NCBI RefSeq assembly: GCF_027594505.1
Contig: NZ_CP115149.1
Coordinates: 372,001-436,000 of the forward strand
DNA from: Tepidiforma flava
GTDB taxonomy: Bacteria; Chloroflexota; Dehalococcoidia; Tepidiformales; Tepidiformaceae
Reading direction: 5' to 3'
DNA: 64,000 nucleotides
Under the pieces are notes generated by a model. The model did not search any database, was not told the DNA's origin, and saw nothing but the letters and a program-made list of their open reading frames with translations. The translations under genes were made by a program, and so were the position numbers. Positions 42,266-46,482 of the stretch are shown here, piece by piece. Numbering within the stretch: the stretch's first letter is position 1; each line of letters begins with the position of its first letter.

Positions 42266-42288
42266 GCGCTCCTCCAGTGGTGGGCTAC

Positions 42289-42294
42289 AGGATA
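42289..42294 (-). promoter_or_regulatory. -10 box of the giant GT-C gene
   Basis: TATCCT on the minus strand, giving a leader of roughly 17-18 bases that includes GGAGGAG before the GTG. The 249-base gap between this gene and gap also holds a small hairpin, TCAGCG/CGCTGA at 42401-42416. Confidence 0.45.
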
Positions 42295-42514
42295 CGGCCG
42301 GCGGGCGTTCGGGACAGGAAACGGGCCGCGGGCCGGCCGGCGCTGCATCCGCGGTCCGGGCGTCCGGGGCGCGGAGCACCGCCGAAGGCAAGGCGGCGGC
42401 TCAGCGACGCCGCTGACCGCGGGCGGAGGCGCCGGGGCCTCGCGAACGGGCCGGGAACGGCGCTGCCCTCGCGGAGCGCGGGGGCAGCGGGTCCGGGACG
42501 AACGGGAGCGGGGG

Positions 42515-43532
42515 CTACAGGCCTTGTTCGGCGACGAAGGCGGCGAGGTCGCTGAGGCGGCAGGCGTAGCCCCACTCGTTGTCGTACCAGGCCGCGACCT
42601 TCACGAGGTTGCCCCCGACGACGTTGGTGGAGAGGCCATCGACGATGGACGAGCGCTCGTCGCCTTTCATGTCCATGGAGACGACGGGGTCCATGGTGAT
42701 GCCGAGGATGCCCTTCATCTTCTCGGCGGCGGTTTCGCGGATGAGGTCGTTGAGGGCGTCTTTGGTGATGTCCTTCTCGGTGAGGGCGACGACTTCGACG
42801 ATGGAGACGGTGGGCGTGGGTACGCGGTAGGCGAGGCCGTCGAGCTTGCCTTCGACCTCGGGGATCACGAGCTTGAGGGCGCGGGCGGCGCCGGTGGAGG
42901 TGGGGACGATGTTGAGGGCGCCGGCGCGCATTTCGCGGAGAGTCGCTGCCGGCGGCTTTGTCGAGGATCTGCTGGGAGTTGGTGTAGGAGTGGATGGTGG
43001 TCATCTGGCCTTTGACGAGGCCGAGGTTGTCGACGATGACCTTGACGACGGGGGCGAGGCCGTTGGTGGTGCAGGAGGCGTTGGAGATGACGTGGTGCTT
43101 CGCCGGGTCGTAGGCCTCGGGGTTGACGCCGAGGACGATGGTGACGTCTTCGTTCTTGGCGGGGGCGGAGATGATGACCTTCTTGACCGAATCGCGGCGG
43201 TGCGCGGCGGCTTTCGTGGCGTCGGTGAAGAGGCCGGTGGATTCGATGACGATGTCGGCGCCGACGGAGCCCCACGGGATGGCGCCGGGGTCGCGCTCGG
43301 CGAAGACGCGGACGGTGCGGCCGTCGACGACGAGCGCGTCCTGCTCGGCGCGGATATCGCGGTTCCAGCGGCCGTAGTTGGAGTCGTACTTGAGGAGGTT
43401 AGCGTTGACGTCGGTGGCGACGAGGTCGTTGATGGCGACGACTTCGAGCTTGCCGGCGTAGCGGTCGGTGATGGCTTTGAAGACCTGGCGGCCGATGCGG
43501 CCGAAGCCGTTGATGCCGATCCTGGTGACCAA
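42515..43532 (-). CDS. gap: Glyceraldehyde-3-phosphate dehydrogenase, type I (one frameshift)
   Basis: Oxidises glyceraldehyde 3-phosphate with NAD(P) in glycolysis; about 339 residues. RIGINGFGRIGRQVFKAI (Rossmann), SNASCTTNGLAPVVKVI (active Cys), TTIHSYTNSQQILDKAAG (catalytic His before a break near 42950), RAGALNIVPTSTGAARAL, and the end WYDNEWGYACRLSDL. TTG start with GGAGGG 8 bases before it. Glycolysis is also represented by pyruvate kinase at the window end. Confidence 0.97.
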
Positions 43533-43610: not shown

Positions 43611-43931
43611 TCAGGCGAGCTTCACGGCCGTGCCGGAGGCGGTGATCATGAGCATCTGGCCGCCGACGGTCTCGTAATCGATTTTGACGCCGACGACGGC
43701 ATCAGCACCGAGCTGCTGGGCGTACTGGAGCATCTCGGCGACGGCGTGGTCGCGGCCCTTGCGGAGCTCCTCTTCGTACTTGCCCGAGCGGCCGCCGACG
43801 ATGTTGCGGAAGCCGGCGGCGATGTCCTTGAAGACGTTGACACCGAGGATGACTTCGCCCGCGACGAGGCCGAGGTACTGCTGGATGGGGCGGCCTTCGA
43901 CGGTGTTGGTGGTGGTGAGGATGATGGCCAT
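43611..43931 (-). CDS. YbjQ/DUF74 family protein
   Basis: 106 residues, intact. YbjQ proteins form pentamers of unknown function and carry a heavy-metal-binding-like fold. Seen: [47 protein letters not shown] and [21 protein letters not shown] lies 7 bases before ATG, and TAGACT at 43978-43973 is a probable -10 box. It is divergent from a pair of very small genes across a palindrome-rich gap. Confidence 0.9.
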
Positions 43932-43972
43932 GCGAAACCTCCGGGCGGGGATTTGGGGCCGTGCGCATCCCC

Positions 43973-43978
43973 AGTCTA
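43973..43978 (-). promoter_or_regulatory. -10 box of the YbjQ-like gene
   Basis: TAGACT on the minus strand, about 42 bases before the ATG; the palindromes at 44002-44026 begin just behind its -35 region. Confidence 0.4.
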
Positions 43979-44001
43979 GCGGAGCGGGGATGTTCCCGGA
44001 T

Positions 44002-44051
44002 GTTCACTGAACCTATCGATCGATAGCCTACGCGTATGGCTATTCCGGAAT
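44002..44051. promoter_or_regulatory. Cluster of three perfect palindromes in a divergent promoter
   Basis: GTTCACTGAAC at 44002-44012, CTATCGATCGATAG at 44013-44026 directly next to it, and ATTCCGGAAT at 44042-44051. The second overlaps the TAGCCT box (44024-44029) that stands 6 bases before the ATG at 44036. The patch is much richer in AT than its surroundings. Confidence 0.5.
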
Positions 44052-44130
44052 CGATGCCGAATTTCGCCTACCTCGCACAGCGCGGCCGGCCGATGCTGGA
44101 GGTGAACCCCGCGAAGGAGAACGACGATGA
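44036..44130 (+). CDS. Very small leaderless gene, about 31 residues (frameshift assumed)
   Basis: MAIPESMPNFAYLAQRGRP then MLEVNP. TAGCCT plus 6 bases precedes the ATG, the leaderless layout seen at folD and aspS. As written, the frame runs on antisense to the HAD gene, but one more C in the C4 run near 44106-44109 gives the end NPREGERR and a TGA (44128-44130) overlapping the next ATG. No family known. This is an inference from promoter and coupling, not from homology. Confidence 0.4.
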
Positions 44131-44252
44131 AGCGGAAGCTGGTGACCTGCCCGAAGTGCGAACTGGAATTCACCTCGAACCGGGAGCTGACCTACTGCCC
44201 GGGGTGCCACGCGCTGGTGGAGCCGCGAGCGCGCGCGGCGGCGGGGCGTTAG
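44127..44252 (+). CDS. Small zinc-ribbon protein, 41 residues
   Basis: MKRKLVTCPKCELEFTSNR followed by ELTYCPGCHALVEPRAR and a basic tail. Two CPxC knuckles 16 residues apart form one treble-clef or rubredoxin-like zinc site. AAGGAG lies 7 bases before the ATG. Intact. It ends 4 bases inside the convergent HAD gene. It is too short for standard gene callers and may be missed in annotations. Nucleic-acid or partner binding is likely; the role is unknown. Confidence 0.72.
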   Translation: MKRKLVTCPKCELEFTSNRELTYCPGCHALVEPRARAAAGR

Positions 44253-44922
44253 CCGGCGGGGGCCCGGCCTTCCCAGCGGCGGAGGATGGCCTCGCGGAGG
44301 GCGGCGGGGGAAGGTATTTCGATGCCGCCGGGGTCGGGCTCGACCGCCCACACGGCGGTGAAGGCGATGGCGCCGGCGCGGTCGGCAGCGGCGCGTTCGT
44401 GGCGGCCGGGGGCGACGAACGCGGTTTCGGTGGGATGCGTGTCGAGCAGGCTGAGGCACTCGGCGAGCTGGTCGGCCGGGGCGTAGGCGCCGCCGCGGGG
44501 CGGAACGATGACGGTGAGGAAGCGGTCGAGGCCGGTCGACTCGGCGTGTTTTCGGGCGAGGGGGTAGGGGAGCCGCGAAATCGCGGCCATCTCGATGAGT
44601 TCGCCGCGGAGCTCATCGAGCGCCATGCCGATGCCCTCGAAGACGAGCAGCCGTTTGAGGGCGCTGCGGGCGGCGTACTGTTCGCAGAGGGCTTCGGCGG
44701 CGTCGCGCTCGCGCGGGTCATCGAGGAGGATGCGGAGCGCCTCGCGCCAGGGCGGGCGTGGTAGGCGTCGGCGAGGTCGCGGGCGGAGATGCGGCGGCCC
44801 GTGACGGCGGCGACGGCTTCTTCGAGGGCGTAGGTGAAGGCGGGGCGGCTATCGATGAGGGCGCGGTCGAGGTCGAACACCACGAGGCGCGGGCGCGGGC
44901 GTCCGCTGCCGACGAGGGGCAT
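44249..44922 (-). CDS. HAD superfamily hydrolase (one frameshift)
   Basis: About 224 residues. Motif I is RLVVFDLDRALIDSRPAFTYALEEA (nucleophile and acid Asp). An alpha-helical cap follows, then GLDRFLTVIVPPRG and the motif IV region DTHPTETAFVAPGRHERAAADRAG. The frame breaks near 44758. In motif I the usual DGTL is DRAL. The ATG shares one base with the stop of the transferase gene (TGATG). Substrate unknown; co-transcription with a nucleotidyltransferase suggests a sugar or cofactor phosphate. Confidence 0.82.
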
Positions 44923-45556: not shown

Positions 45557-46482
45557 TCAGGCGCGGGCGGCCGCGGCGGCCTGGAAGGTGTTCTCGACGC
45601 CGAATTCCCGGGTGAGGATGCGGAGGAATTCGTGGATGGGCGGCGCGAGGATGCGGTTGCGGAGGATGTGGACGCCGACTTCGAGCTGCGCGGGCTGCTC
45701 CATTTCGCGGATTTCGACGCGGGCGAGGGTGCCGCGCTCCCGTTCGCGCTCGAAGGAGACGACGGGGAGGATGGCGACGCCGAGGCCGGCTTCGACCATG
45801 TGCTTCGTGGTCTCCATGTCGTCGAGCTCCATGACGGATTCGGGGACGACGCCGGCGCGGAGGAACATGGAGTAGACCAGGCTGTGGTAGCTGGAGCCGC
45901 GTTCGAAGAAGAGGAACGGCTGGCGGCCGGCTTCGGCGATCGAGACGCGGCCCTTTTCGGCGAAGGGGTGGTCCGGGGGAACGACGAGGGCGAGGTCGTC
46001 GTTGTAGAGGTGGAGCGACTGGATTTCGGGGTGCTGAGCGAGGCGGGTAACGGCAACGTGGAAGTCGCCGGCGAGGAGGGAGTCGATGATGTCTTCGGTC
46101 TGGCCGGTGGCGAGGTGGATGTGGACGCGCGGGCGGAGCTCGCGGAACTTTTTGAGGATGCGGGGAGGACGTAGGTGGCGATGGAGGTGGAGGCGCCGAT
46201 GCGGATGGTGCCGACTTCGCCGTGGCGGACGGCTTCGATGGCGTCGGTGCCTTCCTGGACGGCGGTGAGGGCGCGCTGGGCGTGGGGCATGAAGGCGCGG
46301 CCGGCATCGGTCAGGGTGACGCTGCGGCCGGTGCGTTCGAAGAGGCGCTCGCCGAGCTCGCGCTCGAGGGACTGGATGCGGGCGGTGACGGATGGCTGGG
46401 TGAGGAAGAGGGCCTCGGCAGCACGGCTGAAGGAGCGGTGGTGAGCGACCTGGATGAAGGCTTCGAGCTGTGCCAGTTCCAC
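45557..46482 (-). CDS. LysR family transcriptional regulator (one frameshift)
   Basis: About 308 residues. N-terminal helix-turn-helix LEAFIQVAHHRSFSRAAEALFLTQPSVTARIQSLE, then the linker helix and a periplasmic-binding-like effector domain: VGTIRIGASTSIATYVLP, a break near 46165, LALVVPPDHPFAEKG, LFFERGSSYHSLVY and EAGLGVAILPVVSFERE. GTG start with GGAGGAA 5-11 bases before it. Similar to CysB/CbbR-like regulators. It stands between ferredoxins and a MobA-like gene; target and ligand unknown. Confidence 0.92.

Follow-up and report, generated by a model that had tools for sequence, protein, structure and literature searches.

A zinc-ribbon microprotein gene conserved in Tepidiforma-like bacteria lies behind a predicted LysR-type promoter

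Three palindromes stand close together at the head of positions 44002 to 44252 of the window, which is the whole 64,000-nucleotide stretch of Tepidiforma flava DNA analysed here (G000:C1:372001-436000; G+C content, 70.7%; genome, 2.77 Mb). The original prediction read this locus as two very small genes, the first leaderless and the second encoding a zinc ribbon, under strict control by the palindromes. This raises the question of which of these elements are real and what they serve. Judged from sequence comparison, 44002-44252 is probably one regulated transcription unit, in which a LysR-type promoter drives a lone zinc-ribbon microprotein as part of a LysR regulon for acetyl-CoA assimilation.

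The zinc-ribbon gene (44127 to 44252, plus strand) encodes a 41-residue protein with the pattern CPKC-x12-CPGCH. Profile searches detected matches in 24 of the 38 genomes of the order, with E-values down to 3e-24, and in 3 of 301 genomes of a phylum sample, all three of which belong to the same family. All six genomes of the genus carry the gene (93-98% identity). Within the genus, pN/pS was 0.14 and the numbers of variable columns at codon positions 1, 2 and 3 were 4, 5 and 23, respectively. The invariant residues include C8, C11, C24, C27 and H28, and the AlphaFold2 model is a beta-hairpin ribbon (pLDDT 79.8). Further, the expected ribosome-binding site, GAAGGAGAA, is present at 44113-44121 on the plus strand. 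The conservation, pN/pS and the model together establish that the 41-residue zinc ribbon is a true gene, as had been proposed, that is small enough to escape notice and is retained by a family of Tepidiforma-like bacteria. When the protein was compared with Pfam and NCBIfam, every match was under the curated cut-off (best Pfam match, E=0.0023), and a search of PDB sequences with its profile returned chance matches only. The zinc ribbon is a family-wide microprotein that was previously undescribed; our guess is that it serves as a zinc-binding accessory or protein-interaction factor.

Conservation in relatives, which held for the zinc ribbon, failed for the other proposed peptide, the product of a leaderless ORF at 44036 to 44128 (plus strand), and we reject this ORF as a gene. 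Its pN/pS was 0.90, not better than that of the other five frames, and variable columns in the genus were spread evenly over the codon positions (12, 13 and 13). In 12 of 24 relatives the start or frame is lost, either because ATG is replaced by ATA, ATC, ATT or GTG or because stops intervene. Codon 4 is TAG in the sister species G002, and stops occur in the frame in G008, G009, G019, G020 and G032. In the source genome the frame is open for 242 codons. A base missing from a C4 run had been invoked to bring the ORF into overlap with the zinc-ribbon start. This run, whose true position is 44107-44110, does not differ in length between the source genome and four sister genomes (G002, G003, G004 and G005), which rules out a missing base there; a sequencing error is not the cause of the frame offset. 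The ORF does terminate in an ATGA overlap in G003 and G004, because in these genomes an extra base adjoins the zinc-ribbon ATG, outside the C run. A 31-codon ORF with this overlap was found only in these two genomes and in a few distant relatives. These overlaps, together with an ATG and open frame in 12 of the 24 relatives and the residues S-[IM]...Y-L that are similar between genera, could be taken to indicate that a leader peptide of ~31 residues is translated from a leaderless start at 44036 and is coupled to the zinc ribbon. Against the evenly distributed variation, the lost starts and the internal stops, we regard such a peptide as very improbable; further, promoter elements account for the conserved letters.

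The palindromes present are GTTCACTGAAC at 44002-44012, CTATCGATCGATAG at 44013-44026 and the ATTCCGGAAT element. As such, palindromes in the window are near chance: there were 14 perfect 14-mers compared with 8.9 in shuffles, and 44 perfect 12-mers compared with 32.9. In the sister genomes the first and third sequences have no palindromic symmetry, and they were ruled out as operators for this reason. Relatives retain just the middle palindrome, as a degenerate CTAT-N6-ATAG. The suggestion of control by three palindromes finds support for the middle palindrome and falls for its two neighbors.

When 24 genomes were anchored on ATAG (44023-44026), conserved A/T positions were aligned nearly without gaps from about -24 to +74 (~95 bp). 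The strongest element of this pattern was the dyad ATAG-N7-CTAT, which was present in 24/24 genomes and has T-N11-A within its inverted repeat. We call the copy at 44021-44039 LysR-type box 2 (CGATAG-N7-GTATGG, with a T-N11-A core; consensus, CCATAG-N7-CTATGGCT). Box positions were taken by best-score anchoring, and shuffles and the promoters of a second LysR gene (LysR B, see below) served as controls. Box 2 scored at least 16 in all 24 zinc-ribbon promoters compared with ~1.3% of shuffles. The second-best offset of the dyad was -21 (mean, 4.5 of 8 matches; mean of all offsets, 1.85, sd 0.81), and it places box 1 at 44002-44016 (GTTC-N7-CTAT, which keeps T-N11-A), 21 bp upstream of box 2. Since the dyad recurs at exactly this distance, the middle palindrome CTATCGATCGATAG is best read as the CTAT-N6-ATAG junction of two boxes that are two helical turns apart. 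It had been assigned to the -10 box of the leaderless ORF; the best-supported -10 lies ~70 bp downstream. Further, the ATG that was taken for a leaderless start lies within CTATGG, the right arm of the predicted box 2, which illustrates that a conserved operator arm can be mistaken for a leaderless start codon. Genome-wide pattern searches found 58 occurrences of CTATSSATSSATAG in 23 family genomes compared with 11 of the reversed control. Exact boxes numbered 42 compared with 16 for the control family-wide (2.6-fold), and 14 compared with 1 within the genus. For known regulators, the BenM/CatM box is ATAC-N7-GTAT (PMC6628147), and LysR-type (LTTR) sites are T-N11-A near -65 (PMC8407307). The view that palindromic sequence marks real transcriptional control here is therefore borne out in that the middle palindrome lies in a conserved, putative LysR-type promoter with a box in 24/24 relatives.

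Downstream of box 2, the block AATCGAT..GAA.TT (44049 to 44064) is conserved at fixed spacing, +26 to +41 from ATAG, and is a candidate activation site between the box and the promoter. It is followed on the plus strand by CTACCTC (44068 to 44074), a conserved -35-region block at fixed spacing that matches the -35 consensus weakly and stands 17 bp before the candidate -10. A poor -35 is expected if the promoter is of the activated type, as we suppose. The -10-like hexamer GATGCT (44092 to 44097, plus strand) keeps A2 and T6 in 21 of 24 relatives, compared with 28% of background windows. It predicts a transcription start near 44104, which would leave a leader of ~22 nt that holds the ribosome-binding site. 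Measured from the predicted -10 hexamers, the box lies at about -74 at the zinc ribbon and about -62 at the gene for crotonyl-CoA carboxylase/reductase (ccr). Directly over the palindrome, another promoter (P1, TTGTTC-N17-SATAGY) has spacing that fits sigma-70 in the genus, but we rejected it because it requires the leaderless reading; P1 is possible as a second promoter.

The conservation over ~75 bp downstream of the box is rigid, as would be expected if the leader were a structured RNA that regulates the zinc ribbon. However, the genus consensus fold (-16.0) was close to that of shuffled columns (-13.5, sd 2.9), single-sequence z-scores were around 0, the whole set gave no fold, and an Rfam search returned nothing above threshold. 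We give an RNA element scarcely any credence and retain the LysR-type promoter as the explanation of the conserved stretch.

To which regulator would the boxes belong? The most likely binder is LysR A, a protein of 299 residues encoded elsewhere in the genome (G000:C1:2335317-2336213, L194). It has an N-terminal LysR HTH (PF00126, E=7e-25) and an effector domain, and its full length gave structure matches to OxyR, CbbR, CatM and BenM. The promoters of all 26 LysR A orthologues (26/26) have a box scoring at least 16. The LysR A promoter is dense in ATAG and CTAT half-sites, and identity of LysR A across the genus is 98-100%, above that of the zinc ribbon. LysR A is missing in nine to ten g13 genomes and in G007 and G013, from which the zinc ribbon is also absent. 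G011 and G023 possess LysR A but lack the zinc ribbon; conversely, G015, which is 69% complete, has the zinc ribbon with no LysR A found.

A box was detected before ccr in 20 of 23 genomes with LysR A and in 0 of 7 without it (Fisher P=6e-5, uncorrected for relatedness; all seven that lack LysR A come from one genus, so that there were fewer independent events than these counts imply); three ccr promoters in genomes with LysR A have no box. In the ccr promoter, the box is accompanied at fixed spacing by TTTAC, another ATAG and a -10-like hexamer, and the predicted transcription start follows the box by ~62 bp. A box also precedes a thiolase gene, which has a divergent small gene, in G000, G001, G002, G003 and G006, and an acyl-CoA carboxylase gene in G021. 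The 3-hydroxyacyl-CoA dehydrogenase (HACDH) gene of several genomes and a gene for a 65-residue microprotein have the junction form CTAT-N6-ATAG and not a clean box. The thiolase, carboxylase and HACDH genes would be the candidates beyond ccr for an ethylmalonyl-CoA pathway regulon. The microprotein gene (G000:C1:1782377-1782571, L174; M[AS]GIFYDP...WTLVTH[ND]...CRRI) occurs in 20 of 38 family genomes, has no family in Pfam or NCBIfam, and has a strongly conserved promoter, CTAT-N6-ATAG-CC-GATAAT. Separately, in three genomes (L304, L305 and L307), we observed a LysR box upstream of a gene whose product resembles substrate-binding lipoproteins (YWDxYWxxRxSRRRFL...GCGDDDD).

The predominance of CTAT-N6-ATAG over ATAG-N7-CTAT at the 65-residue and HACDH genes would suit a different regulator, either a LysR paralogue or a non-LysR reader of CTAT-N6-ATAG, with LysR A merely co-regulated. 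In most relatives the gene of one paralogue, LysR B, is close to that of the zinc ribbon. However, none of the 20 LysR B promoters scored for the box reached 16, and LysR B was rejected as an autoregulated binder for this reason. Further, the restriction of the ccr box to genomes with LysR A and the exact LTTR geometry of ATAG-N7-CTAT argue against another regulator, and we consider it unlikely. LysR A thus remains our preferred candidate for the binder.

The neighboring genes were also inspected. A YbjQ-family gene (43611 to 43931, minus strand; PF01906, E=4.4e-39) is divergent from the zinc ribbon, as the original prediction had it, and in relatives the two genes lie side by side on shared contigs. 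The sequence AGTCTA(G) at 43972-43979 reads TAGACT on the minus strand (43973-43978) and recurs upstream of YbjQ in relatives; it is a candidate YbjQ -10. Its distance to the LysR box differs among relatives, as judged by eye. Shared control of YbjQ and the zinc ribbon is possible. The genes for a GAPDH-like protein, for the product of the frame that follows the zinc ribbon and for LysR B (42285-43532, 44249-44922 and 45557-46480 (minus strand), respectively) are apparently split over two frames. LysR B is one intact frame in relatives, and these splits suggest assembly indel errors or decay.

We propose that LysR A occupies the two tandem ATAG-N7-CTAT boxes, spaced 21 bp, and that it would activate rather than repress. 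RNA polymerase would use the -35 and -10 elements at 44068-44097. The boxes would then precede the predicted start by ~74 to 95 bp, near the position that is usual for LysR activation. LysR A may also control its own gene, ccr and the genes for the thiolase, HACDH and the 65-residue microprotein. Under such common control, expression of the zinc ribbon would most likely accompany acetyl-CoA assimilation. Isolates of Tepidiforma incorporate acetate and have no complete glyoxylate cycle (PMC10284905), which fits a need for an acetyl-CoA assimilation route. A further idea, which we hold to be rather doubtful, is that the zinc ribbon and the 65-residue protein are microprotein partners dedicated to a new acetyl-CoA assimilation regulon that a LysR protein runs in Chloroflexota, for example by modulating LysR A or an acyl-CoA enzyme in a zinc-dependent way. 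On the main reading, the microprotein belongs to a predicted metabolic regulon for which a regulator and an operator can be named, and the locus bears on how Tepidiforma may control acetyl-CoA assimilation.

Among known proteins, the short zinc ribbons of the Zn_ribbon_9, Zn_ribbon_3 and YnfU families (Pfam/NCBIfam) have the CPxC...CPxC knuckles in common with the 41-residue protein, which differs from them in being unusually short and in its conserved VEP after the second knuckle. The predicted promoter resembles those of BenM/CatM-type LysR regulators in its dyad with a 7-bp spacer, T-N11-A core and tandem sites, in the predicted place of the box near -62 at ccr and in a predicted autoregulatory site on the regulator gene. 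In contrast to the BenM/CatM type, the arms here are ATAG/CTAT and binding is predicted; the box at the zinc ribbon is farther upstream than the ccr box, by about one helical turn. Known regulators of acetyl-CoA and propionyl-CoA assimilation include CcrR, a TetR-family protein of Methylobacterium, and RamB and PccR of the ScfR family (PMC10370305). The system proposed here is like these in its predicted control of ccr and neighboring acyl-CoA steps. Unlike CcrR, RamB and PccR, the candidate regulator belongs to the LysR type and comes from the Chloroflexota, and two uncharacterised microproteins fall within the regulon predicted for it.
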